Below are positions 2,452 to 22,903 of a DNA stretch of 64,000 nt, in pieces. The position numbers and the translations under genes were made by a program. The DNA is from Rhodococcus sp. RD6.2. Lineage in GTDB: Bacteria; Actinomycetota; Actinomycetes; Mycobacteriales; Mycobacteriaceae. The notes under the pieces are model-generated. The model was not told where the DNA came from. It did no database searches and saw nothing but the letters and a program-made list of their open reading frames with translations. The stretch covers positions 488,324 through 552,323 of the forward strand of contig NZ_CVQP01000001.1 in assembly GCF_001040705.1 (NCBI RefSeq), in the 5' to 3' direction. Within the stretch, counting starts at the first letter, position 1. Every line of letters starts with the position of its first letter.

Positions 2452-2469
2452 AGGAGGGTGCCTTTCGGG

Positions 2470-3366
2470 TTATGCGGGAAGGTCGGAGGTTTCGGTGGCC
2501 GCCGTCGGCGCCGCCGTCGGCTTCCTGACCGGACGCAGGAACAGCGGGAGCACGATGGCGATGTAGGCAACCCACGCGACGACCTGAAGGACCGTCGGGT
2601 CGGGGCGGAAGTTGAAGATCCCCTGCAGCACCGTTCCGTACCAGCTGGACGTGTCGAACCAGGAGGATGCGTCGAAGGCGAAGTTGGTTCCGCCGGGCAG
2701 CCACCCGGCGATCTGCAGAGCCCGGACGCCGTAGGCCAGGATTCCCGCGGCAACGACCACGAGGAACGCTCCGGTGTACTTGAAGAACTTCGCGAAGTTG
2801 ATCCGGACCGCGCCGAAGTACAGCAGCACCGTCAGGACCGCCGCGACCGCGATGCCGAGCAGGAGTCCGATCAGCGGCCAGACGCTGTTTCCCGCGTTCT
2901 CGGCGTAGCCGACGAGGAGCAGAGCGGTTTCGACGCCCTCGCGGCCGACCGCGAAGAACGCCATCGCCGCGACCGCCAGCGGGCCGATCGCGAGTGCCTT
3001 GCCGAGACTGTCCTTCAGATCGCTCGAGATGGTGGCCGCGGCGGTACGCATCCACAGCACCATCGCGGTGACGATCGCGACCGCCACGAGGGAAGCGATG
3101 CCGCTGATCAGCTCTGCTGCGGTTCCGGTGACGGTCGAGGTACCGAAGTGGATGGCACCGAAGATCACGGCCACCATCGCGATCGCGGTACCGACGCCGA
3201 GCCACACCCACTTCAGGGCGTCGCGGCGCTCGGACTTGACCAGGAACGCCACGAGGATCATCACGACGATCCCGGTTTCGAGGCCTTCTCGAAGGCCGAT
3301 CAGGCCGCTGCCGAACAGTTGGGTCGCGATCCCCGGCGCCGTGGCGTCGGCGGCGAGTACAAGCAC
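2470..3366 (-). CDS. efeU: EfeU/FTR1-family iron permease
   Basis: A 298-aa polytopic membrane protein with about seven hydrophobic helices and both FTR1-family REGxE iron-binding motifs: REGLE at 26-30 and REGVE at 142-146. It carries oxidised iron across the inner membrane. It is the first gene of efeUOB. The GTG start at 3366 gives a normal family length and puts the first REGLE motif in the first helix. An IdeR-like box lies 42-60 bp upstream, which suggests repression by iron-loaded IdeR. Both Glu motifs are intact, unlike the inactivated efeU of some E. coli K-12 strains, so the system should be functional. Confidence 0.95.
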   Translation of the reverse strand: MLVLAADATAPGIATQLFGSGLIGLREGLETGIVVMILVAFLVKSERRDALKWVWLGVGTAIAMVAVIFGAIHFGTSTVTGTAAELISGIASLVAVAIVTAMVLWMRTAAATISSDLKDSLGKALAIGPLAVAAMAFFAVGREGVETALLLVGYAENAGNSVWPLIGLLLGIAVAAVLTVLLYFGAVRINFAKFFKYTGAFLVVVAAGILAYGVRALQIAGWLPGGTNFAFDASSWFDTSSWYGTVLQGIFNFRPDPTVLQVVAWVAYIAIVLPLFLRPVRKPTAAPTAATETSDLPA

Positions 3367-3585: not shown

Positions 3586-4893
3586 TCAGCCGGTGACGGC
3601 AGGCTCGCGCGTGTCGGCCTCCGGTGTGCCCGCGTCCGTGCGCGGCGCAGTCAGGTCCGCGATCGCGCGGCGCAGCGGATACGCCAGCACCATGAGCGCA
3701 ACCATCTGCGCGGTGAGCGCTCCGAGGCCGACACCGATCAGGCCGACCCGGGGGACGAGGAGAAGCGCCACCGTGAGGGTGGTGGCGACGATGACCACCT
3801 GGATCGCCAACATCAGCCGGAGCCGGCGCAGGATCTGGGCGAGGAGGAAGTACAGGATGACGACGGTGCCGACGAGCGACTCCACCGCCATCACCACCAC
3901 CAATCCGGCCGCGGCGTGGAAGTAGTCCGGGCTCACCACGTACAGGACCAGCGGCCCGCCGATCGCCAACCCGGCAGCGGAGACTACGGCCACCGCGCCG
4001 AGCATCTTCACCAGGCGGCGGAGCAGGGCGGCCCGGTCGGCGTCCGGTGCCGACGCCTCGACGATGAATGCCGAACCGACGGAGCTGCGGAGCAGGCCGA
4101 CCGCCGAGCACATCGTCCACGCCAGGTTGAAGTACGCGTTCTGCTCGGTGCCGAGCTGCGCGACCACGATCAGCGGAAGCACCAGCGGCGTCACGGTGAC
4201 GACGAGCGTCATCGTGAAGTACACACCCTGGAACGCCCACAGTTCCCGCGTCGGCGGCAGCTGCGGCTCGGTGTTCTCGCGGCCACGGACCCCGGTGCGC
4301 AGCATGTGGACGACCGCCGCCGCGGTGACGACGAACGCCAGCACCGCCCACGAACCCGTCAGCGCCAGCGCCGAACCCGTCCCCGCCAGCACGACGATGG
4401 GCACGATCTTCAGCACCGACAGCGCAATGTTCTTGACTGCCACGGCTTTCGCGAGCCGTAGGCCGGTCAGGATCGGATCGGACAGGGCGTACACGGCGAA
4501 GGCCACCACGATCAGCGGGAACAGCACGAGCTCGGTCGTGGACGTGAACAGTCGTGAGTTCGACGGATTCACCGCCAGGAACAGGGTGCCGAGCAGCAGC
4601 GCAACAGTGGAGGTCAGGGTCAGGCCGCCCACGATCAGCCGGGTGGAGGAACGCCCCGCCAGCGGCAGGAACCGCTGGTACGCACCGCCGAGGGACAGGC
4701 ACGACACCGACGCCAGCATGGTCGCCGTGCTGATCACCGCGGACGCTCGGCCCACCTCCGACGTGTCGAAGAAGCGTTCCGCGACAGCCCAGTACACCAA
4801 TCCGAGGGCACCCGTCGCGACCGATGACACCATCAGTGCCGCGGCATTGGATTCGAGGCTCGCCGTGGCGAGACGCTTCGGCACGCGGATCAC
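3586..4893 (-). CDS. Flippase-like polysaccharide/oligosaccharide export membrane protein
   Basis: A 435-aa integral membrane protein with about twelve hydrophobic segments, of the MATE/Wzx (polysaccharide biosynthesis, MOP superfamily) type. It is a clear paralogue of the protein at 13889-15196: both begin SLExN, then share GLxYWA, EVGxASAVI and ATML stretches and the FLPLAG segment. Wzx-type proteins flip lipid-linked sugars across the membrane. The GTG start at 4893 overlaps the stop of the upstream GT14-like gene (GTGA), so the two are translationally coupled; longer in-frame starts would run back through that gene. It is the last gene of a six-gene operon that also holds the NRPS-like and aryl-precursor genes. 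The substrate is unknown, and export of a glycan, glycolipid or glycosylated small molecule are all possible. Confidence 0.8.
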   Translation of the reverse strand: MIRVPKRLATASLESNAAALMVSSVATGALGLVYWAVAERFFDTSEVGRASAVISTATMLASVSCLSLGGAYQRFLPLAGRSSTRLIVGGLTLTSTVALLLGTLFLAVNPSNSRLFTSTTELVLFPLIVVAFAVYALSDPILTGLRLAKAVAVKNIALSVLKIVPIVVLAGTGSALALTGSWAVLAFVVTAAAVVHMLRTGVRGRENTEPQLPPTRELWAFQGVYFTMTLVVTVTPLVLPLIVVAQLGTEQNAYFNLAWTMCSAVGLLRSSVGSAFIVEASAPDADRAALLRRLVKMLGAVAVVSAAGLAIGGPLVLYVVSPDYFHAAAGLVVVMAVESLVGTVVILYFLLAQILRRLRLMLAIQVVIVATTLTVALLLVPRVGLIGVGLGALTAQMVALMVLAYPLRRAIADLTAPRTDAGTPEADTREPAVTG

Positions 4894-5780
4894 GGCGTCA
4901 CCGGTTCGGTTGAACGGAATGCGTCGATGAGTGCCTGCCCCGTGTCGTCGACCTTGCGGGCGAACAGCGCGGGGGAGCGACGCAACTCGGCCTCGTCGGT
5001 GGCGGTGAACGTGCGGGGGTTGACGGCCTGACGGTCCGACCAGTCGATGTGGTGCATTCCGTGCACTGGATGCGCGAGGTAGGCGGCGATGTCGGGCTCG
5101 CGGTCGACATGCTGGGCGATGCGGTCGGCGAGCGGCGAGGCCGCGACGATCGACTGGAAGACGACTTCGTCGGGGCACAGGGTGTGCCGGTGGAATCGCA
5201 GCCACTGTGGGTGCGCGGCGAGGAATCCGGTGACCTCCGCGATCGCGGCCGGAGTGAGCGACCACCACATCGAGCCCTGCACCAGTGGGATCGTGTCGTC
5301 GACCCGTCGGGGCAGCCGCCCGGACAGGTGGGCCCACACGGGGCCGGAACGGTCCGCGAAGTGCCGGCGCGCGACGACGTGGCCGCGCTGCGAACCCGGC
5401 CCCGTGAGCCGATGGTCGACGCGCAGGAACTCGGTGTCCGTCGACCAGGCAGCGAGCACGTCGTCGAGCGGGGCGATCAGCAGGTCGGCGCCCGAAAGCA
5501 GGGAGAAACGTGCGTAGTTGTGCCCCGAACCCTGTGCTGCGGCAATGAGATCCAGTGTCGACTCGACAATGCTGAATCCGCCCCAGGACACGGTGCGTCG
5601 TTGGTGGAGGTACGTCAGTCCGTCCCGTTCCGGGGCCGCTGCGAGGAAGGGCGTCAGGTCCGACTTCGCGTCCACGTGGACGTACACGTCGATCGCCGGG
5701 TGGCGCAGCGACTCGAGCAGTGACGCCAGCACGTGTGGCTGGTGATGTGCGAGGACCAGCACCGCGTGCCGGTCCGTCAT
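4890..5780 (-). CDS. Core-2/I-branching (GT14-like) glycosyltransferase
   Basis: A 296-aa protein resembling the core-2/I-branching beta-1,6-N-acetylglucosaminyltransferase family (GT14): N-terminal AVLVLAHHQP, then VYVHVDAKSD, SWGGFSIV, FSLLSGADL and GSMWWSLT, all typical of that fold. No signal peptide or membrane helix is seen, so it acts in the cytoplasm. The ATG at 5780 overlaps the stop of the NRPS-like gene (ATGA), and its own stop overlaps the flippase start (GTGA). This ties an aryl-activating synthetase, a sugar transferase and an exporter into one translational unit. Donor and acceptor are unknown. I infer that it adds a sugar to the product of this cluster. Confidence 0.8.
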   Translation of the reverse strand: MTDRHAVLVLAHHQPHVLASLLESLRHPAIDVYVHVDAKSDLTPFLAAAPERDGLTYLHQRRTVSWGGFSIVESTLDLIAAAQGSGHNYARFSLLSGADLLIAPLDDVLAAWSTDTEFLRVDHRLTGPGSQRGHVVARRHFADRSGPVWAHLSGRLPRRVDDTIPLVQGSMWWSLTPAAIAEVTGFLAAHPQWLRFHRHTLCPDEVVFQSIVAASPLADRIAQHVDREPDIAAYLAHPVHGMHHIDWSDRQAVNPRTFTATDEAELRRSPALFARKVDDTGQALIDAFRSTEPVTP

Positions 5781-8311
5781 GTTTTGTCCCCCAGGGCGGT
5801 ACGGACCAGTGCTGCGGTCCGCGCGACATGGGGTGCGCGCAGCATCCCGACGTGATCGCCCGACACCCGGTCCACCGACACGACGTTCGGCGCGATGATC
5901 GACCACCACGACGGCTCGTCGGGGTTGTCCTCGGCCATCACGACCGCGACCCGTCCGTGCCACGGCTGGAGCTTGTGCAGTAGCGCCACCCGCCTGCCCA
6001 GCTCGTGGAAGAGGTCCCACTGCTTCTGGGCGGGACGGGGCACGATGCCCGCCGTCAGGAGCCGGAAACGGGTGCGCCACAGGGCGCCGCGGCTGGGCGC
6101 CGGTCCGTCGACCGCGGGCCGGGTGCCCGCGGTGCGAGGCAGGTCCGGTCCGCCCTCCGACAGTGGCCCGCCGAGGATCGTGTCGAGGCAGATCACGATC
6201 TGGACGTGGTGCCCGTCCGCTTCGAGCAGTCGGGCGACCTCCATGGCGATGACGCCGCCGAGCGAATGGCCGACGAAGGCGTACGGCCCGTGCGGCTGGA
6301 CTCGGCGGATCTCCCGGAGGAATCGGCGCGCGGCCGCCGCAACCGTCCAGTCCGGAAGTCCCCGGCTCTCGAGGCCGTGGGCCTGCAGTCCGTGGACGGG
6401 CCTGCTCAGCTCGCGGGCCAGAGGCAGGAGCGCCAACGCGGTCGATCCCGCACCGGCGAACGCGAACACGGGTCTGCCGATGCCGTCCGGGTGAAGCGGA
6501 ACGAGCACCGAGGTGGCGGCGACTGCGCCCGAGTTCGTGCCGTCGAGATGCGCCGAGAACTGCCGAAGGGTCGGGAACCCGGCCAGCGTCGCCGACGAGA
6601 ACTGGACGGCGAAACGTTCCTCGACCTGGGTGAGCATCTGCTGGGTCTGCAGCGAATCCCCGCCGAGCGAGACGAAGTCGTCGTCCCTGCCGATCGGGTC
6701 GACTCCGAGGATCTGGGACCACAACGCGGCGACGGTCGTCTCGGTGTCGCTGCGCGGCAGGACCACCGGAGGCCGGGGCGTGGGATCCGGCAGTGCCGTG
6801 CGGTCCACCTTGCCCCGCTCGTTTCGGGGCAGGGTCGGCATCAGGACGATGTTCGTGGGAACCATCCAGTCCGGCAACAGGCTCCGCAGCTCACATCGGA
6901 GATCGGCCACCGACGGCGCCCGATCGCCCTGGGCGAGAGCCGCGTACCCGACGAGCGTCGTGGAACCGTTGTCCAACTTCCTGGCGACGACGACGGCGTC
7001 CTCGACGGCAGGAATCTTGCGCAATGCCGACTCGACCTCCGACGGCTCGACGAGATACCCGCGGATCTTGACGGCGTCGTCGCCGCGTCCCACCAGGTGC
7101 AGGAATCCGTCGTCGTCGAAGCGGCCCAGATCGCCCATGCGGAAGGAACGAGCGCCACGGTCCGTGGTACCGAAGCGGTCGTCGAGGGGACCGGGCCCGA
7201 ACCCGTCCACGAAATACCCCTCCGCGAGGTAGTCGGACTCGACGACGATCTGGCCGACCTCGCCCGGGCCGACCGGTGCGTCGTCCGGCCCGAGCAGGCG
7301 GACGGTCTTGTTCGCGGCGACCACCCCCACGGGCAACACACCGTCCGGAACGGGGCGACCGGGCGGGAACGCGTTGAACGCGAGGTTGCCGGTCTCCGAC
7401 GACCCGGACAGGTTGCAGTACGAGGCATCCGGGCCGAGCAGTGCCCGCAACCGGGTCACGTCGGCGCCGTGCACGGCCTCCCCACAGGTGGTGACGAGGC
7501 GGAGGCCCGACAGGGACGGCGTGTCCGCGCACGCCGTCATCACGGCTCGCAGCAGCGACGGGGTGGCGTGCAGGGTGGTCAGCTGCTCACTCGAAATCCA
7601 ATGCGGCACGGCATCGATGCCCACCTCGCGCGGATCGAGAAAGTGCAGTGTGGCGCCGTTGAGCAGCGAGGTCATCACGACGTCGAGTCCGCCGCCGAAG
7701 CTGATGGGCAGCGCCATCCCCACTCGATCCGATGCGCCCGTTCCGAGCGTCGTGTGGAAATCGGCGGCCTGGTTCAGCCAGAGACGCTGTCCCTGCCGCA
7801 CCGCTTTCGGCTTCCCGGTCGATCCCGACGTGAAGAGCAGCACGGCAGTGTCGGTCGGGGCTCCCGAGTGCAGTGGCGTGTCGGGCGAGGGCGGCAGCGC
7901 GGCCAGTTCGGACGGTCGGACGCGCGCCGCGTGGCTGCGGGTGAGGATGTCGGTACGGCGCTGCTCGGGCAGTTGCGAGTCGAGCAGTACGAGTGGGTAC
8001 CCGGACACCAGCACCGTCACGATCGCGACGACGCAGTCGAGTGTGCACTCGGTGTCGATCGCGATCGGGCGGCGGACACCCTTGCGTGACTTGACGAGTG
8101 CCCGCGCCCCGCCGATCGCACGCTCCCGCAACTCGGAGTACGTGATGTGCTCGCCCTGGCACACGACCGCGGTCTGTTCGGGCAGCCAGTCCGCGACCAC
8201 GTCGAATCGGTCGCGGATCGACATCCACGGAACGGGAAACGGCTCGTGGCCGCGCGGCGGTGCGAGCTGGGGCGTCGCCGGGTGCTGGGGCGTCACTGCG
8301 GAATCGGGCAC
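5777..8311 (-). CDS. NRPS-like synthetase, adenylation-carrier-thioesterase (A-PCP-TE), no condensation domain
   Basis: An 844-aa protein with three domains. The adenylation domain spans about 25-520, with TSGSTGKPK at 161-169, an SFRMGDLG motif near 391 and the NERGKVD lysine at 501. The carrier domain has LGGDSL with phosphopantetheine Ser553. The thioesterase has GHSLGG with nucleophile Ser684. There is no condensation domain. In core A4 the usual FDxS aspartate that holds an alpha-amino group is Gly (SFGGGLDV), so an aryl acid or other non-alpha-amino acid is the likelier substrate (inference). The GTG at 8311 is preferred because GAGG sits 5 bp before it; another GTG at 8344 lacks a Shine-Dalgarno and overlaps the monooxygenase gene. 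It overlaps the downstream GT14-like gene (ATGA). It may activate aminohydroxybenzoate made by its neighbours and release or oligomerise it as an ester. Confidence 0.88.
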   Translation of the reverse strand: MPDSAVTPQHPATPQLAPPRGHEPFPVPWMSIRDRFDVVADWLPEQTAVVCQGEHITYSELRERAIGGARALVKSRKGVRRPIAIDTECTLDCVVAIVTVLVSGYPLVLLDSQLPEQRRTDILTRSHAARVRPSELAALPPSPDTPLHSGAPTDTAVLLFTSGSTGKPKAVRQGQRLWLNQAADFHTTLGTGASDRVGMALPISFGGGLDVVMTSLLNGATLHFLDPREVGIDAVPHWISSEQLTTLHATPSLLRAVMTACADTPSLSGLRLVTTCGEAVHGADVTRLRALLGPDASYCNLSGSSETGNLAFNAFPPGRPVPDGVLPVGVVAANKTVRLLGPDDAPVGPGEVGQIVVESDYLAEGYFVDGFGPGPLDDRFGTTDRGARSFRMGDLGRFDDDGFLHLVGRGDDAVKIRGYLVEPSEVESALRKIPAVEDAVVVARKLDNGSTTLVGYAALAQGDRAPSVADLRCELRSLLPDWMVPTNIVLMPTLPRNERGKVDRTALPDPTPRPPVVLPRSDTETTVAALWSQILGVDPIGRDDDFVSLGGDSLQTQQMLTQVEERFAVQFSSATLAGFPTLRQFSAHLDGTNSGAVAATSVLVPLHPDGIGRPVFAFAGAGSTALALLPLARELSRPVHGLQAHGLESRGLPDWTVAAAARRFLREIRRVQPHGPYAFVGHSLGGVIAMEVARLLEADGHHVQIVICLDTILGGPLSEGGPDLPRTAGTRPAVDGPAPSRGALWRTRFRLLTAGIVPRPAQKQWDLFHELGRRVALLHKLQPWHGRVAVVMAEDNPDEPSWWSIIAPNVVSVDRVSGDHVGMLRAPHVARTAALVRTALGDKT

Positions 8312-8318
8312 GGCAACC

Positions 8319-9452
8319 TCACACGTCGGGTGTCGCGGTGACACCGAGACGCGGGAACAGCAGGTCCGCGACGTACTTCGCCTCGTCGATCAGTGGCCAC
8401 CCCGACAGGATCCAGATGTCGATGCCCAGATTCTCGCTCATGCGGAGGATGCGGTCCGCAACCTGGTCCGCACTGCCGACCAGATAGTTGCCCGTGCCCT
8501 TGCCTGCCACGTCGAACGGCGGCTCCGCGCCGGTCCACGTGGTCAGCCCGGCGGCCATGTTGGGCGCGTACTCGAGTTCGGCACGGGTGGGCAGTCGGCC
8601 GGCGCGCAGCGCGTCGATCCGGGCCTGCACCTGACGATCCTCCGACATCAGATCTGTGAGTGGTGGGAAGCCGAAGCTGGTGAGATTGCGGTCGGCCGTC
8701 GCGAGCACCGACTCCGGTGACGTCTGGGACAGCTGCCATTCGAAGCGTTCCCACGCCGCGTCCTCGGTCTCGCGGACGACGACGCTGGCGAGCACGCCGA
8801 ACCTCATCTCGCGGCCGGCATCGGCAGATGCCTTGCGGACCTTGGTGAACAGTGCGTCCATCGCCGATTCGGGGCTCATGAACATCAGGTACGCGTCGAG
8901 CACCTGCGCGGCGTGCGCGATGCCCTCGGGGGACGCGCCCGTGCCCCAGACCGGGACGCCACCGGGCTGGCGCGGGCCGGCGATCGCGGGCTTGTAGCGC
9001 GGTCCGTAGCCGAAATACGTGCCCTCGTAGCCGTCGGTCTCGTCGAGGTAGAGCCGCCTGACCAGCTTCCAGTACTCCTCCGACACCGCGTATCGCTCGG
9101 CCTTGGAGTGGAAGCTGCCGTAGCGGGCGAGCACCGGGTCGGCGCCGTTCACCTGGTTGTAGATCAGTCGGCCACCGGAGTACTGGTCGAAGACCTGTGC
9201 CTCCTCGGCCAGCAGCACCGGCGGCTTCACGCCCGGGTACTCGGGGACCACGAACCGGAGCCGTTCGGTGTCGGCCACCAGCGAGATCGCCTCCCGCGCC
9301 GTGGTCAGGGCGCCGTGGAAGCCGAGGCGGTCCAACGTACGGGCCTGCTCGCGCAGCGCGGCGAAGGACGGCTCGAAGCGGTGCCGCGGATCCCACGGCA
9401 CCTCACCGTCGTTCGCCCCGATGTACCACAGGATGTCGGGCGTGCTGGGCAT
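8319..9452 (-). CDS. SsuD/luciferase-like FMN-dependent monooxygenase
   Basis: A 377-aa bacterial-luciferase-like (TIM-barrel) flavin monooxygenase of the alkanesulfonate monooxygenase SsuD type. Visible family features are the TERLRFVV strand, the SGGRLIYNQVNG segment (near 95), the PVWGTGASPEG phosphate-binding stretch and a C-terminal NYLVGSADQVADRI. Such enzymes use FMNH2 from a separate reductase and oxygen; none of that reductase type is seen nearby. It lies 6 bp after the dehydroquinate-synthase-II-like gene and 7 bp before the NRPS-like start, inside the aryl-precursor operon. A tailoring step on the aryl unit (C- or N-oxidation) is therefore more likely than sulfonate catabolism, but that is inference. 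Confidence 0.82.
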   Translation of the reverse strand: MPSTPDILWYIGANDGEVPWDPRHRFEPSFAALREQARTLDRLGFHGALTTAREAISLVADTERLRFVVPEYPGVKPPVLLAEEAQVFDQYSGGRLIYNQVNGADPVLARYGSFHSKAERYAVSEEYWKLVRRLYLDETDGYEGTYFGYGPRYKPAIAGPRQPGGVPVWGTGASPEGIAHAAQVLDAYLMFMSPESAMDALFTKVRKASADAGREMRFGVLASVVVRETEDAAWERFEWQLSQTSPESVLATADRNLTSFGFPPLTDLMSEDRQVQARIDALRAGRLPTRAELEYAPNMAAGLTTWTGAEPPFDVAGKGTGNYLVGSADQVADRILRMSENLGIDIWILSGWPLIDEAKYVADLLFPRLGVTATPDV

Positions 9453-9458
9453 GGTTGG

Positions 9459-10664
9459 TCAGCGCTCGTCGCAGAACTCGGTGATCGGCAGTCCGACGTG
9501 GCGGGCCTCGGTGGGGACGTAGCCGAGCAGGACGTCGCCGGGGGTGAGTTCGGTGACGTTGTTGACCGAGCCGCCGGGGCCGAGGAGGCGCACGTGCCAG
9601 TCGTCCTGCGCGATGACATTCACGTTCTTGCCATTGGGGGCGACGGCGGTGATCGAGATCAGCGGGCGCTTCTCGATCTTGACGCGCCCGATGCGGACCT
9701 CCCGGACGCTGCCGTCGGTGCGGACCGCGAGGATCGGGAAGCCCGCCTGCAGTTCACTGACGTAGCGGGTCCGGTTGTCGGGACCGAGCACGTAGGAGTG
9801 CACGGCGCCTGCGTTCCACCGGAACGGACGGGTCGGCATGTACGGCAACGGATGGGTCTCGCTGCAGGACAGGAACATTCCTGTGGAGAAGGAACCGATC
9901 AGGCAGCCCTCGTCCAGCTCGAGCAGCGAGCAGGTGTCGATGCAGGCGCGATCGCCCATGCCGATGTGCTCGACCTTCGTGACGACGAGCTCGGAGAGCT
10001 CCATGCCCTCGAGCTTGTGGTCGACGATCCGGGCCAGCTTGACGACGTCGTCCGCGGTACGCGGTGCGAGCAGCAGTCCGTCGGAGCCGTGCTCGAGCAC
10101 CAGCTTGACGATTTCGGCGTCCTCGACGTCGTTGACGGTGGTGATCGTCCGGCCGCCCGAGTTCTCGGCGGCCGCGATGACGATCTCCAGCGGAATCTTG
10201 GTGGGATCGGTGAAGGTCAGCAAGGTCCAGGGAACCTCACGGACCACCTCGCAGGCCTCCTGAAGGGTGGGGGCATCCGAGACCACCACGTGCACCCCGC
10301 GATCCGGGGTGTGGCCGATGTGCTTCGAGTGCACGTCGCCGCGATTCGACAGGATCACGAGGTCGACGGCGTCGTAGGGGAAGTCCTCCGCGACGGGTGC
10401 GTCGACGGCGAGGATGCGGCGCACCGTCGGCGGCAGGCCCTCGAACGTGGCGACATCGTCGGACAGGATGCCGTCGATGCGGTGATGCAGTGCCGCCTGC
10501 ACGACGGCGGGCAGCAGATCCTCGTCCACCGCACGCACGTCGAGCCATGCGAAGTGACCCTCGCGGCTGACGGGGGTGCGACGGGAATCGGCGCCCGCGC
10601 CTGCGGTGGGGACGATCTGGTCGGTGACGATGGTGCTGTCCATGTTCGGACGGGTTCCCTTCAT
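9459..10664 (-). CDS. 3-dehydroquinate synthase II family protein (GriH-like)
   Basis: A 401-aa member of the archaeal-type 3-dehydroquinate synthase II family (MJ1249/AroB-prime), unrelated to normal AroB. Recognisable blocks are AFTDPTKIP-type LLTFTDPTKIPLEI, GSDGLLL, VEHIGMGDRACIDTCSLL, the GSFSTGMFL and PFRWNAGAVHSY segments and a C-terminal NVIAQDDWHVRLL. In archaea it makes dehydroquinate; in Streptomyces griseus the homologue GriH turns the GriI product into 3-amino-4-hydroxybenzoate. The aldolase partner is 27 bp upstream, which matches the griI-griH arrangement. The ATG at 10664 has no clear Shine-Dalgarno; ATG 10643 is an alternative. Because it sits with an aryl hydroxylase and an acid-activating synthetase, aminohydroxybenzoate synthesis fits better than shikimate supply. 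Confidence 0.88.
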   Translation of the reverse strand: MKGTRPNMDSTIVTDQIVPTAGAGADSRRTPVSREGHFAWLDVRAVDEDLLPAVVQAALHHRIDGILSDDVATFEGLPPTVRRILAVDAPVAEDFPYDAVDLVILSNRGDVHSKHIGHTPDRGVHVVVSDAPTLQEACEVVREVPWTLLTFTDPTKIPLEIVIAAAENSGGRTITTVNDVEDAEIVKLVLEHGSDGLLLAPRTADDVVKLARIVDHKLEGMELSELVVTKVEHIGMGDRACIDTCSLLELDEGCLIGSFSTGMFLSCSETHPLPYMPTRPFRWNAGAVHSYVLGPDNRTRYVSELQAGFPILAVRTDGSVREVRIGRVKIEKRPLISITAVAPNGKNVNVIAQDDWHVRLLGPGGSVNNVTELTPGDVLLGYVPTEARHVGLPITEFCDER

Positions 10665-10691: not shown

Positions 10692-11519
10692 TCAGGCGCT
10701 TTCGAGCTCGATGGCGGGGGCAGGGGAATGGACGAGCCGCGCCAGAGCGGATGCGACTGCGAACGGGTCTCGTGCCTCGAACACGTTGCGGCCGAAACTC
10801 AATCCGGCCACACCGGACGTGAGGATCTCCGCGCCGAGCGCGATCGCGTGGTCGTCGCCATCGCGTGTGCTCGGTCCGCCTGCGACGCAGATCGGGATCG
10901 GGCAGGACTCGACGACTCGCCGCATCTCGTCCGGGTCTCCGCAGTAGTCGAGCTTGACGATGTCGGCGCCGAGGTCGGTCGCGATGGCGGCGAGGTGGGC
11001 GAGTTCGCCGGAGTCCGACGGCAGGTCGGCGCGCAGTGGTCCTCGGGCGTACATCATCGCGAGCAGTGGCATGCCGAGCAGTTCGCACTCCCGGGACACA
11101 GCGCCGAAGTCCGCGAGCTGTTCGCGTTCGGTGGGTGATCCGACGTTGACGTGGATGCTGACGGCGTCCGCGCCGATCCGCAGGGCGTCTTCGACGCTCG
11201 TGACCAGGATCTTCGCGTTGAGGTCCATGCTGCGGTTGGTGCCTGCGGAGAGGTGGACGATCAGTCCGGTGCGCGCGAAGACTGTGGGATCGACGTGGCG
11301 GACGCGGCCTCGGTGCAGGATCACGGCGTTGGCGCCCGCGTCCGCGAGCGTCCGGACGGTGGCGTCGGCGTGGTCGGCGGCGCCGAGGGGGCCGGTGGTG
11401 ACGGAGTGGTCCATCGGCACGATGAAGGTCCGGCCGGTGCCGTGATCCGAGATGCGGGAGAGTCGAAGTCCCTTGCCGCTCATGGCTCGAGCGCGTGTGG
11501 TCGTGGGGAAACTCAACAT
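10692..11519 (-). CDS. DhnA-type class I aldolase (GriI / ADH synthase-like)
   Basis: A 275-aa TIM-barrel aldolase of the DhnA/DeoC-like class I family that includes archaeal 2-amino-3,7-dideoxy-heptulosonate synthase (MJ0400) and GriI. Diagnostic parts are the IVPMDHSVTTGP segment near the start, DADAVSIHVNVGS-type IGADAVSIHVNVGS, the strand DIVKLDYCGD with the probable Schiff-base Lys, and the phosphate-binding CVAGGPS followed by GVAGLSFGRNVF. GriI joins aspartate semialdehyde to dihydroxyacetone phosphate. I chose ATG 11519 because GGAG lies 8 bp upstream; ATG 11549 and 11483 are alternatives. It is the first gene of a six-gene operon ending at 3586, with an IdeR-like box 62-80 bp upstream, so its expression should rise when iron is scarce. 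Confidence 0.88.
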   Translation of the reverse strand: MLSFPTTTRARAMSGKGLRLSRISDHGTGRTFIVPMDHSVTTGPLGAADHADATVRTLADAGANAVILHRGRVRHVDPTVFARTGLIVHLSAGTNRSMDLNAKILVTSVEDALRIGADAVSIHVNVGSPTEREQLADFGAVSRECELLGMPLLAMMYARGPLRADLPSDSGELAHLAAIATDLGADIVKLDYCGDPDEMRRVVESCPIPICVAGGPSTRDGDDHAIALGAEILTSGVAGLSFGRNVFEARDPFAVASALARLVHSPAPAIELESA

Positions 11520-11580
11520 CGGCCGGACTCCAATCGGAACGTCGCGCATGCGGGGTCGAACGCGCTGGCGTCCCGCAGTA

Positions 11581-11668: not shown

Positions 11669-12856
11669 TCACCCGGTGAAGTTCCATCGAGTCGGGAACG
11701 GCAGGCCCAGGTACACCTCGCCGAGGGCGGCCTGTTCGGCCTCGGACTCCACCCATCGGCCGAGGCGGGCGCGGCGCAGTTGCCAGTCCATGGGGTCGTC
11801 GCTCAGTGCATGCAGGGTCGTGGTGAGGGTCCACGAGAACTGTTGTGCCTTCCAGATTCTCGGCAGGCACGTCTCGGAGTAGGCGTCGAGGAACGAGCGA
11901 TCGCCCGCGGCGAAGTACGCGCCGAGTGCATGCGAGAGGGTGCTTGCATCCGAGACCGCCAGGTTGAGGCCCTTCGCTCCGGTCGGCGGCACGATGTGTG
12001 CGGCATCGCCGAGCAGGAAGAGCCGTCCGTCCTGCATCGTCTCGCACACATACGAACGCAACGGTGCCACCGACCGGTCGAAGATCTCGCCGCGTTCGAG
12101 TTCGGGGTGGTCGTCGCTCGCACTGCGCAGTGCCAGCTCGTCCCAGATGCGCTCGTCCGACCAGTCGTCGAGGTCGGTGTCCGCGGGAACCTGCAGGTAC
12201 TGGCGAGTGATGCGCGGTCCGCGCATGCTGTGGACCGAGAGTCCGTTCTCGTGGGCGCAGTACATGCCCTCGGGGGTCGTCGGCGCGGTCCGGGCCAGGA
12301 TGCCGAGCCACGCCACCGGGTAGGTGCGACTGTGCTCGCGCAGTCGACCGGCCGGGATGTGCGCACGACTGACACCGTGGAAGCCGTCGCAGCCCGCGAC
12401 GAAGTCGGCGGTGATCTCGAGGGGTGTGCCCGCGTGGTCGACGAGGATGCGCGCACCGTCGGCGGTTGTCTCGATCGCGGTCACCTCGGCGTCGAAGAGG
12501 AGTGATCCGCCCGTGGACAGGCGATTTGCGACCAGATCCTTGACCAGTTCCTGTTGGGCGTACACCGTGGCGTGGCCGCCGCCCAGGCGATGGAAGTCGA
12601 GGTGATGGGTGGCGCGGTCGAATCGGAGGTAGAAGCCGTTGTGCGACATGCCTTCCGTGCTGAGGCGGTCGCCTACGCCGAGTTCGTGCATCAGTGCGAC
12701 GGTGGGCTGCTCGAGGACGCCGGCCCGGGTTCGGGTCTCGATGTACTCCCGATCGCGGTTCTCCAGCACGATCGAGGAAACACCCTGGAGATGAAGCATT
12801 CGGGAGAGCGTCAGGCCCGCGGGTCCGGCTCCGATGATCGCTACCTGGGTGTGCAC
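11669..12856 (-). CDS. pobA: PobA-type 4-hydroxybenzoate 3-monooxygenase (FAD)
   Basis: A 395-aa class A flavoprotein hydroxylase, the same length as classical PobA. It has the FAD Rossmann motif GAGPAG (9-14), the AGCDGFHGVSR DG-motif near 157 and the PobA signature GDAAHIVPPTGAKGLN near 285. PobA uses NADPH and oxygen to hydroxylate 4-hydroxybenzoate to protocatechuate. The GTG at 12856 is chosen over a longer start because AAGGGA lies 6 bp upstream and the protein then begins HTQVAIIGAG as family members do. No protocatechuate ring-cleavage gene is near. Beside GriI/GriH-like genes it may instead hydroxylate 3-amino-4-hydroxybenzoate at C5 to an aminocatechol, or supply protocatechuate as an iron-binding unit (inference). 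It is transcribed alone toward the aldolase, from a promoter region holding an IdeR-like box. Confidence 0.87.
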   Translation of the reverse strand: MHTQVAIIGAGPAGLTLSRMLHLQGVSSIVLENRDREYIETRTRAGVLEQPTVALMHELGVGDRLSTEGMSHNGFYLRFDRATHHLDFHRLGGGHATVYAQQELVKDLVANRLSTGGSLLFDAEVTAIETTADGARILVDHAGTPLEITADFVAGCDGFHGVSRAHIPAGRLREHSRTYPVAWLGILARTAPTTPEGMYCAHENGLSVHSMRGPRITRQYLQVPADTDLDDWSDERIWDELALRSASDDHPELERGEIFDRSVAPLRSYVCETMQDGRLFLLGDAAHIVPPTGAKGLNLAVSDASTLSHALGAYFAAGDRSFLDAYSETCLPRIWKAQQFSWTLTTTLHALSDDPMDWQLRRARLGRWVESEAEQAALGEVYLGLPFPTRWNFTG

Positions 12857-12911
12857 GAGGGTTCCCTTCGTCGGTGTGACAGTCCTCACAGGGGGCGCCC
12901 ACGCGCTTTGC

Positions 12912-13043: not shown

Positions 13044-13892
13044 GTGAGCATCCCAACACCGACGGACGGCCCGGGAACCCCCGCAGTCCCGACCGTCGTA
13101 CCCCCCGCCGACGGCAATGCCGGTCGTGGCGGCAGGCCCACAGTTTCGGTCATCATCCCCGCCATGAACGAGGCGAAGAACCTCCCCTTCGTCGCCTCTC
13201 GGATGCCGGACGGCATCGACGAAATCGTGTTCGTGGACGGCAATTCCGTGGACGACACCGTCGCGGTGGCGCGCTCGCTGTGGCCTGCCGCCACCTTCGT
13301 CACCCAGACCCGAGGCGGCAAGGGCAACGCCCTCGCCTGCGGCTTCGCCGCCGCGACCTGCGACATCATCGTGATGATCGACGCCGACGGATCGACCGAT
13401 CCCGCCGAGATCCCGCTGTTCGTGGAGGCGCTCGTCGGCGGCGCCGACCTCGCCAAGGGAAGTCGCTTCGTAGGCCGCGGTGGCAGTTCCGACATCACCG
13501 CGCTGCGCAACGTCGGGAACAAGGGACTCAACGGCCTGGTGAACCTGGTCTTCCGGACCCAGTTCTCCGACCTGTGCTACGGCTACAACGCGTTCTGGCG
13601 CAAGCACGTTCCGCTGATCGAGCTGCCGCCGATCGAGTACCAGCGTGCGCAGTGGGGCGACGGCTTCGAGATCGAGACCGTCATCAACGTTCGACTCGCG
13701 ACCAGTGGGCTCAACATCGTCGAGGTCGGCAGCTTCGAGGGGCCGCGACTGCACGGGCGTAGCAACCTCAACGCCTACAGCGACGGCATGCGCGTGCTGC
13801 GCACCATCGGGCAGGAATGGAACCACTGGCGTGCCACGAAGGACATCCGCAAGGCATCGGCCCGCGCCGATGTGCGTGAACTGACGACGTGA
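13044..13892 (+). CDS. GT2 family glycosyltransferase (dolichol-phosphate-mannose-synthase-like)
   Basis: A 282-aa GT-A fold glycosyltransferase. Residues about 33-45 hold VSVIIPAMNEAKNL, then VDGNSVDDT near 72, TRGGKGNALACG near 96 and the metal-binding DADGSTDPAE near 112. The later YGYNAFWR and GFEIETVIN stretches are typical of dolichol-phosphate-mannose and polyprenyl-phosphate-sugar synthases. It has no C-terminal membrane helices. It probably moves a sugar from an NDP donor to a lipid carrier in the cytoplasm. The GTG start has GGAG 8 bp upstream. Its stop overlaps the start of the flippase-like gene (GTGA), the same coupling seen for the other flippase. An IdeR-like box lies in its promoter region. 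Confidence 0.85.
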   Translation: MSIPTPTDGPGTPAVPTVVPPADGNAGRGGRPTVSVIIPAMNEAKNLPFVASRMPDGIDEIVFVDGNSVDDTVAVARSLWPAATFVTQTRGGKGNALACGFAAATCDIIVMIDADGSTDPAEIPLFVEALVGGADLAKGSRFVGRGGSSDITALRNVGNKGLNGLVNLVFRTQFSDLCYGYNAFWRKHVPLIELPPIEYQRAQWGDGFEIETVINVRLATSGLNIVEVGSFEGPRLHGRSNLNAYSDGMRVLRTIGQEWNHWRATKDIRKASARADVRELTT

Positions 13893-15196
13893 CCACAGGG
13901 GCCGCGCCGAGCACGCGCACGGCCGGTTCGGGAATCCAGGCCAAGAGTCTCGAGCGAAACAGTCTCGCGCTCACGGTGTCCGCCGCGCTGACCGGCGTTC
14001 TCGGTCTCGGATACTGGGCGCTTCTCGGGCGTCACTACCCCGCACGAGAAGTGGGGGCCGCATCGGCGGTGATCACCACCGCCACGATGCTCTCGGCGTT
14101 CGGGAACATCAGCCTCGGCGCGCTGTTCGAGCGGTTCCTGCCACTCGCGGGAGGCCGTGCCTCGGCGCTGGTGCGTTCCGGCTTCCTGGTGGGTGGTTGC
14201 GGCGGGCTCTTCCTCGGCGCGCTGTTCCTGCTGTGGGGGCCGACGGACGAGATGTTCGACGGTCCACTCGAAGCGGCGTCCTTCCCGCTGATCGTGCTGG
14301 TGTTCTCGGCGTTCGCGCTCCTCGACCACACCTCGGTCGGCCTGCGCGAAGCGGGTTGGGCCGCTACGAAGAACGTCACGCATGCCGTCGTCAAACTGGT
14401 TGCCGCGATCGCCCTCGCATTCACCGCGTCCCGGCTCGCCGTCATCTGGAGCTGGACGATTCCCGCGCTGATCGGAGCAGCCGTTCTCGGAGTCGCGGTC
14501 GCGCAGCGGCTGCGTCGTCCCGAGATCGCAGGAGCGCCCTCGCACTTGCCGGATCGGCGTGAGATGGGGTCCTTCCTCGCCGGCTCCTACGGGATCTATG
14601 TTGTGGGATCGCTCGCGCCCCTGATGCTTCCGCTGATCGTGGTCGCCGAGATGGGCGCCGACCACAACGCCTACTTCGCCATCGCATGGTCGCTCGTGTC
14701 GGCCGTCCTCGTGCTGATGACCGTCCTGATGGGGCCGTACGTTGCGGGCGTCGCAGCCGACCCCGACCAGGTCCAGGCGCTGACCCGACGATTCCTGATC
14801 GTTCTCGCGGTGGTCACGGCAGGGGGCGTGGTCCTGTTCGCTGTCGTGGCGCCGGTACTGCTCCGCATCGTCGGAGACGACTACGCGGACACCGGAACTC
14901 CGCTCCTCAGGCTCGCCGCGATCGCGCTGATCCCCGCGATAGTGGGATTCGCCTACAACGCCGTCGCCCGCGTGCGTCGGCGGCTACGGCTGGCGATCGT
15001 GGTCCAGGTCGTCAACGCGGCGCTGGTCCTCGGCTTGAGCATCGCCCTCATCGACGATCATGGTCTGGCTGCGATGGGCTGGGCCTACATCGTCGCGGAG
15101 GCGGTGTCGGCAGTGGTGCTCATCGTTCCGCTGACCAGGGCAGTACGTGCACTCGGAAGTGAACCGCGGGGCGTTCAGCCGGCCTCTGTCATCTGA
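13889..15196 (+). CDS. Flippase-like polysaccharide export membrane protein (paralogue of 3586-4893)
   Basis: A 435-aa membrane protein with about twelve hydrophobic helices, MOP/Wzx-like, and the same length as its paralogue at 3586-4893. Shared segments are near-collinear from SLERNSLAL onward (EVGAASAVITTATML, RFLPLAGG, LMLPLIVVAEMG, NAYFxxAW). It should move a lipid-linked or amphipathic saccharide outward. The GTG start overlaps the stop of the GT2 gene (GTGA). Its 3-prime end overlaps the convergent GH16 gene by 22 bp. Two related exporters in one cluster, each coupled to a different glycosyltransferase, suggest two related substrates or a heteromeric pair. Confidence 0.82.
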   Translation: MTTGAAPSTRTAGSGIQAKSLERNSLALTVSAALTGVLGLGYWALLGRHYPAREVGAASAVITTATMLSAFGNISLGALFERFLPLAGGRASALVRSGFLVGGCGGLFLGALFLLWGPTDEMFDGPLEAASFPLIVLVFSAFALLDHTSVGLREAGWAATKNVTHAVVKLVAAIALAFTASRLAVIWSWTIPALIGAAVLGVAVAQRLRRPEIAGAPSHLPDRREMGSFLAGSYGIYVVGSLAPLMLPLIVVAEMGADHNAYFAIAWSLVSAVLVLMTVLMGPYVAGVAADPDQVQALTRRFLIVLAVVTAGGVVLFAVVAPVLLRIVGDDYADTGTPLLRLAAIALIPAIVGFAYNAVARVRRRLRLAIVVQVVNAALVLGLSIALIDDHGLAAMGWAYIVAEAVSAVVLIVPLTRAVRALGSEPRGVQPASVI

Positions 15197-16116
15197 ACGG
15201 CATTCGGCGCCGGCGCGATCGTGCGGTTGCTCATCGCGTCCAGCTGTGACTTCTCCGGCGCGTACACCGCCACCCAGTCGATCTCCACGTCCACACTGTC
15301 CGGACGCAACGGGCTCGTCTCGGAGCACGGTGTGATACCCCAGTCCGCACGACGCTCGCAGGCGCCGGCCTCGGCCTGCAGCCCTAGCCACATCGGCTGG
15401 TCCGGAACCATGACGTCCGAACGGACCTCGGCCCACACCGCACCGTCGAGCAGATAGCGGATGATTCCCGGCCCCCACTCGACCCCGACGGTGTGCCAGT
15501 CCGAGAAGTCGCCGGTGACGAAACCATGGGATTTCCTGTTCTCCCCACTCGCGTCGACCCAGTGCACGAACGCGTCCATCTGCGTGCGCTCCCCGCTCGC
15601 GGACTCTGCGAAGTCGATCTCCGGTGGCCACTTCTCGCGCTGCGGCCACAGGAGCATGTGATACGAGATGTCGTCGCTGCGGTCGGCGCGCATCCGGATC
15701 TCCCACCGCCCGTACTCCTGCGTCACGGGATAGTTGGAGACCCCACCGGTGACCCACCCGTCGGCCGTGCGTTCGGACTTCAGCGTGAGTGCGCCGCCTG
15801 CCACCTCGACCATCGACCCGTCCCACCAGCTGTTCGGGTTTCCACCGGGCTGCCCGCTGTAGGAACTCCACTTGCTGCCGAGTTCGCACCGGTCGAAGTC
15901 GTCGGTGAAGATCTGCGTCCACCCCGGCAGATCACCGACGGGAACGGGGATCTCGCCGGGAATCTCACTCTCACCGCAGACGTCCGATGCGGGAGCGGCG
16001 CCCAGTCGGCCGGTCGGGTTGTTCGTCGGGATCGTGCAGGACGTGCAGGCGGCCGCGGCGAGCGCCGCGGCCAGGGCGCGCGCAGTCCGGCGTGCGCGCA
16101 GGGGGCGACGCGTCAT
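15175..16116 (-). CDS. Secreted GH16 glycoside hydrolase, putative lipoprotein
   Basis: A 313-aa protein with an Arg-rich n-region, an Ala-rich helix and a lipobox-like AAAC (Cys24), so probably anchored outside the membrane. The rest is a GH16 concanavalin-like lectin/glucanase fold (GWTQIFTDDFD near 65, WEIRMRA near 139) with the catalytic ExDxxE motif intact as EIDFAE (166-171), and a C-terminal DVEIDWVAVYAP strand. GH16 enzymes cut or transglycosylate beta-1,3/1,4-glucans, galactans and related polymers. The ATG at 16116 overlaps the stop of the small membrane protein gene (ATGA). As the last gene of a glycan operon it may trim or release the polymer. A second GH16 lies at 23105-24418. 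Confidence 0.87.
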   Translation of the reverse strand: MTRRPLRARRTARALAAALAAAACTSCTIPTNNPTGRLGAAPASDVCGESEIPGEIPVPVGDLPGWTQIFTDDFDRCELGSKWSSYSGQPGGNPNSWWDGSMVEVAGGALTLKSERTADGWVTGGVSNYPVTQEYGRWEIRMRADRSDDISYHMLLWPQREKWPPEIDFAESASGERTQMDAFVHWVDASGENRKSHGFVTGDFSDWHTVGVEWGPGIIRYLLDGAVWAEVRSDVMVPDQPMWLGLQAEAGACERRADWGITPCSETSPLRPDSVDVEIDWVAVYAPEKSQLDAMSNRTIAPAPNAVQMTEAG

Positions 16117-16313
16117 CCGGCGAGGGCGATCAGTCGAACGAAGGTCATGGCTGCCGCGGTCGCCACGCACACCGCGAGGGCGACGGAGACGATGTGCGCG
16201 GACGGCTTCCTGCCGATGGCGCCGGTGTCCGGCACATCGCGTTCGCGCAGGGCGACACTGACGAGCAGCAGGACGGCGGACAGGACGAAGAACAGGACGG
16301 TCAGGTTACTCAT
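16113..16313 (-). CDS. Small two-helix membrane protein, unknown function
   Basis: A 66-aa protein not recognised as a known family. It consists of two hydrophobic helices (about 4-21, LTVLFFVLSAVLLLVSVAL type, and 40-62) joined by a short basic loop (RERDVPDTGAIGRKPS), so both termini should face the same side. Its ATG overlaps the stop of the 747-aa membrane protein gene (ATGA), and its stop overlaps the GH16 start (ATGA). This double coupling, and the absence of any better frame here, make it a real gene. It is probably an accessory subunit of the large membrane protein. Confidence 0.72.
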   Translation of the reverse strand: MSNLTVLFFVLSAVLLLVSVALRERDVPDTGAIGRKPSAHIVSVALAVCVATAAAMTFVRLIALAG

Positions 16314-18553
16314 GATGTCTCGAATTCGATGGCGGCGGAATCGAAGCGGCGGAGGATGGTGATGCTGTCGCCGTCGACCATCGGCACGTACCGTCCGGAC
16401 GCGACGAGCTCGCTCACCTGGGCATCGAGATACTCCGGGGACAGGCCGTACTGCAGTCGCAGCATGCCGGTGCCCTGACTGGTCGTGTAGAGGTAGGACG
16501 GGCTGCGTTCGAGTGCACAGGTCGAGAGATCCCGCATGCACTCGTCGCTGTCGATGAACGAGAACTTGGGCCCACGGGAGTCGAGGGTGCGGCGGACACC
16601 GTTGGTGTGCGGCGCGTATGACCACGCCATGACGGTCGATCCGGCCGGGACTGCGGCGACGAACTCGTCGGACACGACGACCTGTTCGCGCGTCGACGCC
16701 TCGAACGAGGTGTTCAGGCCACGGTTCGTGGTCAGCAGCGCGCCCAGCGCCACCAGCGCAAGCGCTCCCGCGACGACCGGCACCCAGCCCCCGGCCGGAG
16801 TGGCGGCCCGGGAGCCGGCGCGCTTCCGTACCGCCCGAACCGCGTGAGCGACCGCAACGGCCGCGAACGGAGCGAGTACCGGGGACGCGAGAACGAAGCA
16901 ACGAATGATCATCTCGCCGCCGTAGCTCTGCAGCAGGACCAGGGCGAACGGTGCCCCGCACATGGCGCCCGCCACGAGCCAGGTTCGGCGTCCACGAGCG
17001 AAGAGCCAGCCGACGAAGGCGACGGCCACGAACAGACCCGACGCGCCCATCCGCAGATACTGCATCTGCTGATAGGTCGGGTCGCCGGAGAGTCGTTGGC
17101 CGACGCCACGGTTCACGGACGAGCCCACCTGCCCGATCTCGGCGAAGATCGACTGCAGGTGACCGAACCAGAAGTCGGTGGCGCCGTAGCTGAACCAGGC
17201 CGCGAAAACGAGTCCCGCGGCGAGCCACAGCGTTCGGTACCTGGTGACGCCGAAGAGTGAGAAGAAGGCAAGGGCGATGACGACCAGGATCGGTGTGATC
17301 TGGTGGGACACCACGTTCGCGACGATCAACAGCAGGAGCACGGCGCCGATCGCGAGCGTGCGTGAGGTGCCGAATCCGGGGACCAGGCCGGGGGTCCGAC
17401 GCGGCGCATCGAGAACGAACCGGAGGAAGCCGGGCTCGATCCGGGGGAGCGGTGCGCGTCGCAGCTGCCACAGCAGCGTTGCGACGATCGTCGTGTAGAA
17501 GACCAGCGCGACGGCCTGCGGAGCGAAATAGTCCTGCTGATACCAGTTGAACAGTTGGTACAGCACGACCGACAGCCACGCGAGTCGGGCCCGGCCGGTG
17601 ACGGAGATGGCGATCGCGTACAGCGGGAACGCGAGGAGCGCGCCCATGAACAGCGTCGACCACGCGAGGAGAACGGTGACGTCCTGCACGTCGGCCACCG
17701 TCACCAGATGCGCGCCCGCCGAGAAGAATCCGGCCCAGCTGAAGCGCGCGTCGATCCCGTTCGGGAGGTGTCCGGATTCGGCGATGCTCGTGATGAACCC
17801 GCGGTGCACGAAGGCAGTGGGAACCGAGGTCTCGCCGCTGGCGACCGGTACCAGCATCGTCGTGTACGCGAGCAGGACCACAGTCGACGCCGCCATCACC
17901 ACATGGTCGACATGGCTGCGTGTCAGCGTGTGGACGATCGTGGCGGACAGGACTGCGAATCCGAGCCAGAACGCCACTCCGACCTGCGTGATGATCCCGT
18001 AGTGCCCGGAACCGAGAAAGTCGAGTTGCCTTGCGGCAAAAACGAACAGCGCCACGCTGACCAGGAGCGCCCCGAGTGCGAGTGCGCGGGCCCGACTGAC
18101 GGTGCGCAGATACTGCAGCGCGCCGCGAGGGACGGTGTAGTGCCGCGGCAGCGTCCGCTCGGCAACCACGCAGCCGACGAGTGATCCGATGGCGACCAGG
18201 GTCTGGACCGTCAGCGGGCTCCACCACTCCGCGACGATCGTGAACTGCGCCGCAAGGATGACGGTGGCCAGCGAGACGGAGACGATCAGTGACGCGGACA
18301 GCGCGCGACCGGGGATCCGCAACGCGACGACCACGGGCAGGCCCGGCACGAGGACGGCACCCGCGAGTGTGACGAGGAGCCGTAGCGGCTCCGGAATCAG
18401 GTCCGATGCGCCGATCGCGACGAGCAGGTTCAGTGCCAGCATTGCCGCCGACACGGCGCCGCCGAGAAGCAGCGCGGATCGCGGATTCCACCCGAATGCC
18501 GTGGTGGGCGACGAGGTTCCCGTCACCTGTGGGGCGGCGGTGTCGGCGGTCAT
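16310..18553 (-). CDS. Large polytopic membrane protein, possible GT-C-like glycosyltransferase
   Basis: A 747-aa protein with about 13-14 hydrophobic helices from residue 25 to 590 and a hydrophilic C-terminal region of about 150 residues (FVAAVPAGSTVMAW... to the end). The long extracytoplasmic loops, and the tail beginning after a TTNRGLNTSFEAST segment, resemble GT-C-type transferases and other actinobacterial surface-glycan membrane proteins, but no motif lets me name a family. The ATG at 18553 overlaps the stop of the tandem GT2 gene (ATGA) and is preferred over longer starts that would run into that gene. Its end overlaps the small membrane protein. A role in polymerising or transferring lipid-linked sugars outside the membrane is inferred from context. 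Confidence 0.7.
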   Translation of the reverse strand: MTADTAAPQVTGTSSPTTAFGWNPRSALLLGGAVSAAMLALNLLVAIGASDLIPEPLRLLVTLAGAVLVPGLPVVVALRIPGRALSASLIVSVSLATVILAAQFTIVAEWWSPLTVQTLVAIGSLVGCVVAERTLPRHYTVPRGALQYLRTVSRARALALGALLVSVALFVFAARQLDFLGSGHYGIITQVGVAFWLGFAVLSATIVHTLTRSHVDHVVMAASTVVLLAYTTMLVPVASGETSVPTAFVHRGFITSIAESGHLPNGIDARFSWAGFFSAGAHLVTVADVQDVTVLLAWSTLFMGALLAFPLYAIAISVTGRARLAWLSVVLYQLFNWYQQDYFAPQAVALVFYTTIVATLLWQLRRAPLPRIEPGFLRFVLDAPRRTPGLVPGFGTSRTLAIGAVLLLLIVANVVSHQITPILVVIALAFFSLFGVTRYRTLWLAAGLVFAAWFSYGATDFWFGHLQSIFAEIGQVGSSVNRGVGQRLSGDPTYQQMQYLRMGASGLFVAVAFVGWLFARGRRTWLVAGAMCGAPFALVLLQSYGGEMIIRCFVLASPVLAPFAAVAVAHAVRAVRKRAGSRAATPAGGWVPVVAGALALVALGALLTTNRGLNTSFEASTREQVVVSDEFVAAVPAGSTVMAWSYAPHTNGVRRTLDSRGPKFSFIDSDECMRDLSTCALERSPSYLYTTSQGTGMLRLQYGLSPEYLDAQVSELVASGRYVPMVDGDSITILRRFDSAAIEFETS

Positions 18554-21904: not shown

Positions 21905-22903
<999 letters not shown>

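Follow-up and report, generated by a model that had tools for sequence, protein, structure and literature searches.

The window analysed here is a stretch of 64,000 nucleotides of Rhodococcus sp. RD6.2 (Mycobacteriaceae; contig NZ_CVQP01000001.1, positions 488,324 to 552,323), and the gene in question, at 5777..8311 on its minus strand, encodes a synthetase made up of an adenylation (A) domain, a peptidyl carrier protein (PCP), and a thioesterase (TE). It shares its strand with genes for a predicted route to 3-amino-4-hydroxybenzoate (3,4-AHBA), two oxygenases, a glycosyltransferase, and a flippase:

3586..4893, minus strand: MOP-type polysaccharide flippase (flippase1) with about 11 transmembrane (TM) segments; PF01943 just below cut-off
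4890..5780, minus strand: Branch-type glycosyltransferase; PF02485
5777..8311, minus strand: A-PCP-TE synthetase, 844 residues; pocket code GGDHTCLNLK, PCP motif GGDSL, TE motif GHSLGG
8319..9452, minus strand: LLM-class FMNH2-dependent monooxygenase, SsuD-like; PF00296; Protein Data Bank (PDB) matches are alkanesulfonate monooxygenases
9459..10664, minus strand: GriH-type 3-dehydroquinate synthase II (DHQS-II), 3,4-AHBA synthase; PF01959 at E 4e-102, NCBIfam PRK02290.1-3 above cut-off
10692..11549, minus strand: GriI-type aldolase for the first step to 3,4-AHBA; PF01791, NCBIfam subfamily PRK07226.1 above cut-off
11669..12889, minus strand: PobA-like FAD hydroxylase (4-hydroxybenzoate 3-monooxygenase-like); NF006091 at 505 bits against a cut-off of 351

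The first-pass annotation, made from the letters alone, had placed the synthetase at these coordinates and given it only A, carrier, and thioesterase domains. Both statements are borne out: the gene lies on the minus strand, Pfam assigns AMP-binding (8e-46), AMP-binding_C, PP-binding (1e-14), and Thioesterase (5e-20) and finds no Condensation domain in the protein, and the product is confirmed as an A-PCP-TE without a condensation domain. Translation starts at a GTG codon at 8311, which follows a GAGG ribosome-binding sequence by about 5 nt and the stop of the upstream LLM gene by 8 nt, and ends at 5777. The predicted model has a mean pLDDT of 85.9, and its A domain superimposes on PheA (1amu) with a Z score of 45.2 and a root-mean-square deviation of 2.2 over 468 residues.

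The genes for GriI, GriH, LLM, A-PCP-TE, Branch glycosyltransferase, and flippase1 run head to tail on one strand. The gaps from GriI through GriH and LLM to A-PCP-TE are 27, 6, and 7 nt, and the A-PCP-TE, Branch, and flippase1 genes overlap by 4 nt each, the start of the Branch gene covering the A-PCP-TE stop. A Branch glycosyltransferase adjoins the synthetase in 9 of the 11 loci of the clade to which the window enzyme belongs (clade I, below).

GriI and GriH yield 3,4-AHBA in known clusters (PMC10179220). In this genome the GriI-type and GriH-type genes are adjacent and a classical 3-dehydroquinate synthase is present separately, elsewhere; the pair is therefore free for 3,4-AHBA and not needed in the shikimate pathway, and a role as shikimate-pathway enzymes is rejected. 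The exception-level NCBIfam models BagC_FevH (on GriH) and BagB_FevI (on GriI) both score below cut-off. As far as sequence goes, these features suggest 3,4-AHBA as the predicted product. The PobA-like protein aligns end to end with the 4-hydroxybenzoate 3-monooxygenase 7on9 and keeps its pocket motifs, whose residues we take to be substrate-side, so that 3,4-AHBA, a free 4-hydroxybenzoate-type acid, would be a reasonable substrate. The LLM monooxygenase may likewise tailor the aryl acid; its gene is variable, being present in some A-PCP-TE loci and missing from others. Three loci (L138-L140) carry the PobA-GriI-GriH-LLM module beside phosphate-transport-like genes and have no A-PCP-TE.

The adenylation pocket

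The A4 core of the window enzyme reads SFGGGLDVVM and aligns without gaps to PheA (the GrsA stretch, 100% identical to PDB 1amu residues 190-527), which gives, in PheA numbering, the pocket G235, G236, D239, H278, T299, C301, L322, N330, L331, and K517. The earlier reading of a Gly at position 235 in place of the Asp that anchors the α-amine is thus upheld, with the nuance that an acidic residue, Asp239, lies one helical turn further on in the pocket. Asp239, common to 19 of 60 relatives, might serve to hold the AHBA ring amine, or some other group. The A5 core, in turn, reads GSSE where GPTE is expected.

Both changes are features of the whole family. Among 60 A-PCP-TE proteins, including the window enzyme and drawn mostly from 12-20 kb neighbourhoods in genomes of the same taxonomic family and class, none has Asp at position 235 (38 Gly, 12 Ala, 5 Ile, 3 Ser, 2 His) and none has Pro at the GPTE position (42 Ser, 9 Ala, 6 Thr, 2 Cys, 1 Val), while Lys517 is present in every one. 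Asp235 is present in the controls aligned in the same run, namely GrsA and the nonribosomal peptide synthetase (NRPS) A domains encoded in this genome; GrsA and each of the four NRPS domains also show GPTE. Because all 60 relatives lack Asp235 yet keep Lys517, while the control domains have Asp235, the loss is due neither to chance nor to misalignment; nor is it a peculiarity of this one gene.

The pocket makes a non-amino-acid substrate likely. Asp235 is replaced in A domains for α-hydroxy, α-keto, and aryl acids, and the α-hydroxy-acid domain of enniatin synthetase has Gly at this position; McyG has Val235 and yet activates Phe (PMC11253843). Mutating the conserved A5 Pro increased activity on an α-keto acid (PMC11253843). 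The substrate class is not fixed by residue 235 and the A5 Pro. Loss of Asp235 alone does not indicate an aryl acid, because it is family-wide and extends to genomes without AHBA genes, and because Gly235 also occurs in α-hydroxy-acid and Val235 in Phe-activating A domains. The initial expectation of an aryl or hydroxy acid therefore stands in part: Asp235 and the GPTE Pro are both lost and 3,4-AHBA genes lie in the operon, but the missing Asp by itself is not aryl-specific.

Two attempts to be more precise were rejected. The A5 stretch, SYCNLSGSSETGNLA, does not match the DhbE/EntE-type motif, and the enzyme is not assigned as a DhbE-type aryl-acid ligase; nor can the substrate be named from the A-domain code, since codes do not track the presence of AHBA genes. 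Within clade I, members with an LLM gene have T299 and L322, and members without one have Ala, Gly, or Cys at 299 together with R322. This pattern may reflect an LLM-modified substrate, though it is confounded by ancestry.

Distribution, co-occurrence, and gene fusions

In a survey of 401 genomes of the taxonomic family, A-PCP-TE proteins of this kind occur in 91. A tree of the synthetases contains two clades that are linked to AHBA genes and to flippases: clade I, which includes the window enzyme and has the code GGDHxC[LR]N, and clade II, with mostly GANxxTW. In another clade the neighbours are glycosyltransferases, large NRPS genes, and DrrABC-type transporter genes; at L141, which belongs to it, the complete four-gene AHBA module, the A-PCP-TE, and a glycosyltransferase stand next to DrrABC-like transporter genes and what is probably the beginning of an NRPS gene. 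A further clade and more distant relatives in other taxonomic families are stand-alone genes, four of which (L165, L166, L168, L169) lie near pnp/rpsO-type housekeeping genes named by eye. A scan of named genomes with the A-PCP-TE gave two clear orthologs (L011, L012), the remainder being distant ligases. No assigned function was found for the family, and nothing on this locus was found in the open-access literature.

In six genomes the A-PCP-TE forms the C-terminal half, and a MOP-type flippase the N-terminal half, of a single open reading frame of 1290-1362 residues. Two further fusions involve family 2 glycosyltransferases (GT2):

L103:8355-12236: flippase-A-PCP-TE fusion, 1293 residues
L136:5066-9154: flippase-A-PCP-TE fusion
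L142:13350-17243: flippase-A-PCP-TE fusion
L155:6789-10661: flippase-A-PCP-TE fusion
L156:6444-10316: flippase-A-PCP-TE fusion
L157:6948-10955: flippase-A-PCP-TE fusion
L160:6442-9891: GT2-A-PCP-TE fusion, glycosyltransferase N-terminal
L142:4869-6965: GriH-GT2 fusion

Where clade II loci have the two as separate genes, flippase and A-PCP-TE lie side by side, in most cases sharing 4 nt. The fusions and this adjacency argue more strongly than any other finding for joint action of the A-PCP-TE and the glycan machinery. The synthetase may be read as an enzyme that activates and loads an acid for glycan decoration, and not as a peptide synthetase.

An alternative is that the PCP serves only as a platform on which the LLM monooxygenase oxidizes the aryl acid, with the TE hydrolyzing the tailored acid for use elsewhere. 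The LLM gene directly upstream of the synthetase and the clade I pattern at positions 299 and 322 would fit such a role, but AHBA loci without LLM (L093, L094, L095, L150, L103, L142) keep the A-PCP-TE and the flippase fusions are left unexplained, so that it appears most improbable.

Of the 401 genomes 23 have GriH, and every one of these belongs to the 91 with an A-PCP-TE, an overlap whose hypergeometric value is 1.4e-16 on the assumption, which does not hold, that genomes are independent. The two genes lie within about 10 kb of each other in 19 of the 23. Such counts bear on a second alternative, in which the A-PCP-TE acylates the glycan with another non-amino acid (α-hydroxy, α-keto, or a different aryl acid) and in which the AHBA module is an independent addition that happens to share the locus. 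Members in genomes without GriH (G293, G351, G363, G201) have closely similar codes and the same flippase and glycosyltransferase partners, and Gly235 has been described in an α-hydroxy-acid A domain (PMC11253843). Against this stand the presence of an A-PCP-TE in every GriH genome, the close neighbourhood of the two genes in most loci, and the finding of no other AMP-ligase among the window genes scanned (3586-25790). This alternative is unlikely, if a serious one.

The glycan locus and a possible decorating role

Beyond the operon the window continues with further genes of the conserved polysaccharide locus:

13044..13892, plus strand: family 2 glycosyltransferase; PF00535; conserved in related loci
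13889..15196, plus strand: flippase-like membrane protein (flippase2), about 11 TM segments; 36-40% identical to flippase1-type proteins, no Pfam family
15175..16170, minus strand: GH16 glycosidase with a lipoprotein-like N-terminus; PF00722
16113..16313, minus strand: 66-residue protein with two TM segments; conserved in the locus
16310..18553, minus strand: 747-residue protein with about 14 TM segments and a soluble C-terminus; no Pfam family, conserved in relatives' loci
18550..20547, minus strand: protein with family 2 glycosyltransferase matches in both halves; PF00535 and PF13641, two stretches each
20641..21897, minus strand: predicted stand-alone condensation-fold acyltransferase; HxxxE motif with invariant H117
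21905..22864, minus strand: NAD-dependent epimerase/dehydratase of nucleotide-sugar type; PF01370

Synteny of this block extends to R. triatomae BKS 15-14 and R. globerulus NBRC 14531, and the block can be recognized in other genomes of the taxonomic family. The 747-residue protein, which by its position may be polymerase- or GT-C-like, and its 66-residue partner (16113-18553) are conserved together in these loci. Near the locus, at 23135-24418, lies a gene for a secreted-looking protein with ricin-B lectin and GH16 regions.

Neither Pfam nor NCBIfam gives a match for the protein at 20641..21897. An alignment with 16 relatives shows an invariant His of catalytic type within an HG(L/I/V)G[DE]-type motif; compared with HHxxxDG, the window protein reads NHGLGEV, the His being H117 and the Asp replaced by Glu here and in several relatives. 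Its predicted model (pLDDT 87.9) adopts the condensation/BAHD/PapA5 fold (Foldseek E 2e-14), with Z scores of 28.1 to AzeD, 22.7 to CDA C1, and 22.1 to PapA5, and a condensation or CoA-acyltransferase fold is predicted on that basis. Homologs lie near AHBA genes, A-PCP-TE glycan loci, or both in about 24 genomes, including some in which AHBA genes are missing. The first-pass suggestion that this protein supplies the transfer step is reasonable in view of its fold, its invariant His, and its conservation in the same loci; the transfer itself is what we infer.

The scheme that we infer for substrate, transferring domain, acceptor, and product, and hold at slightly less than even confidence, runs as follows. 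GriI and GriH would form 3-amino-4-hydroxybenzoate, from which the PobA-like and LLM oxygenases would probably generate a more oxidized acid such as 3-amino-4,5-dihydroxybenzoate. The aryl acid would be adenylated by the A domain and loaded onto the PCP. The Branch and family 2 glycosyltransferases would assemble a lipid-linked sugar, and either the TE domain or the acyltransferase at 20641-21897 would transfer the aryl acid to one of the sugar's hydroxyls. Once decorated, the unit would cross the membrane by way of the paired flippase, to be exported as a surface polysaccharide or glycolipid.

A small soluble product, either an aryl glycoside or an AHBA dimer or benzoxazole-like compound, would call for another division of labor, in which the TE releases or joins the aryl acid, the Branch enzyme glycosylates it, and the flippase-like protein exports it. 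MOP flippases, however, typically move lipid-linked glycans, and the block sits amid polysaccharide genes (two flippases, several glycosyltransferases, GH16, epimerase) that are kept together across genera. Known 3,4-AHBA clusters do yield small molecules, namely ahbamycins and bagremycins/ferroverdins (PMC10179220, PMC6692506), and fungal enzymes of the same domain order condense aromatic acids; even so, a soluble product seems distinctly unlikely.

The operon also has iron genes and a siderophore NRPS cluster on one side and the glycan genes on the other, which raises the question of whether the aryl acid is a siderophore ligand. EfeUOB-like iron uptake genes, named from sequence features and not by scanning, occupy window positions 21-3366, and the siderophore NRPS cluster, which includes an EntS-type exporter, is found just outside the window (G000:C1:454000-485000; L148, L149); similar siderophore-type genes flank L085, L086, L088, and L099. 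A siderophore role is nevertheless disfavoured, because the adjacent cluster has its own aryl-acid genes (isochorismate synthase and isochorismatase) as well as its own carrier protein, and the loci L093 and L095 are without adjoining siderophore genes. We regard it as very unlikely.

For the glycan-decorating role itself, several observations count on the other side. The two AHBA-linked clades differ in code (GGDHxCxN versus GANxxTW), and relatives without GriH have the same codes as those with it; 68 of the 91 A-PCP-TE genomes lack GriH, and four GriH genomes have their AHBA genes away from any A-PCP-TE. Shared ancestry inflates the association counts, Asp239 might bind an amine, and the TE could simply hydrolyze its substrate. 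In its broadest form the proposal is of an NRPS-type machine, widespread in related genomes, in which a flippase-joined A-PCP-TE places a carrier-loaded aminophenol or other non-amino acid on a lipid-linked glycan to give redox-active or metal-binding surface polysaccharides; this we consider possible though doubtful. Were it true, nonribosomal activation chemistry would be tied to surface-glycan assembly in mycolic-acid bacteria, whose envelope would be decorated with an o-aminophenol acid, a group able to chelate metals, be oxidized, and cross-link. The flippase fusions render the idea of decoration directly testable.

Comparison with known systems

The domain layout has its closest counterpart in the non-reducing NRPS-like enzymes with adenylation, thiolation, and thioesterase domains (A-T-TE), such as the fungal quinone and furanone synthetases, which have the same domain order, no condensation domain, and a non-amino-acid pocket. 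The bacterial enzyme RalA belongs to the same group. The fungal A-T-TE enzymes condense two aromatic α-keto acids (PMC9047271), whereas the constant partners here are glycosyltransferases and a flippase, along with AHBA synthesis and the flippase fusions. The comparison drawn in the first-pass annotation thus holds for domain order and not for partners, and the gene context argues for an acid other than an aromatic α-keto acid.

The gri (grixazone), bag/fev (bagremycin/ferroverdin), and ahb (ahbamycins) clusters contain the same GriI/GriH pair followed by adenylation of 3,4-AHBA. Their ligases (GriC, FevW, AhbL2) are separate proteins and their products small molecules, whereas in the window an A-PCP-TE stands with PobA-like and LLM oxygenases in a glycan locus. 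The aryl-acid A domains DhbE and EntE resemble the window enzyme in dispensing with α-amino anchoring and, if the proposed substrate is right, in passing an aryl acid to a carrier protein; their A5 motif QQVxFMAEGL (PMC11253843) and their N235 are absent from it. The protein at 20641-21897 shares its predicted fold with PapA5-type and other condensation-superfamily acyltransferases and has a sequence comparable to their HxxxD/E motif, but is about 12% identical to PapA5 and carries no Pfam or NCBIfam assignment.

An adenylating enzyme and a carrier protein supply an envelope glycan or lipid in Dlt, which D-alanylates teichoic acids, and in AlmEFG, which glycylates lipid A (PMC3783018). These systems use D-Ala or Gly and MBOAT- or LPLAT-type acyltransferases, whereas the A domain here lacks Asp235, is fused to a PCP-TE, and is accompanied by a MOP flippase and a condensation-fold protein. 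Because Pfam matches among the window genes 3586-25790 include neither an MBOAT (DltB) nor an LPLAT (AlmG) acyltransferase, the locus would work like Dlt and Alm without being a member of either. The operon and the fusions link adenylation and a carrier protein to envelope glycan machinery at the gene level; Dlt and AlmEFG appear to be the nearest working analogues of the locus.

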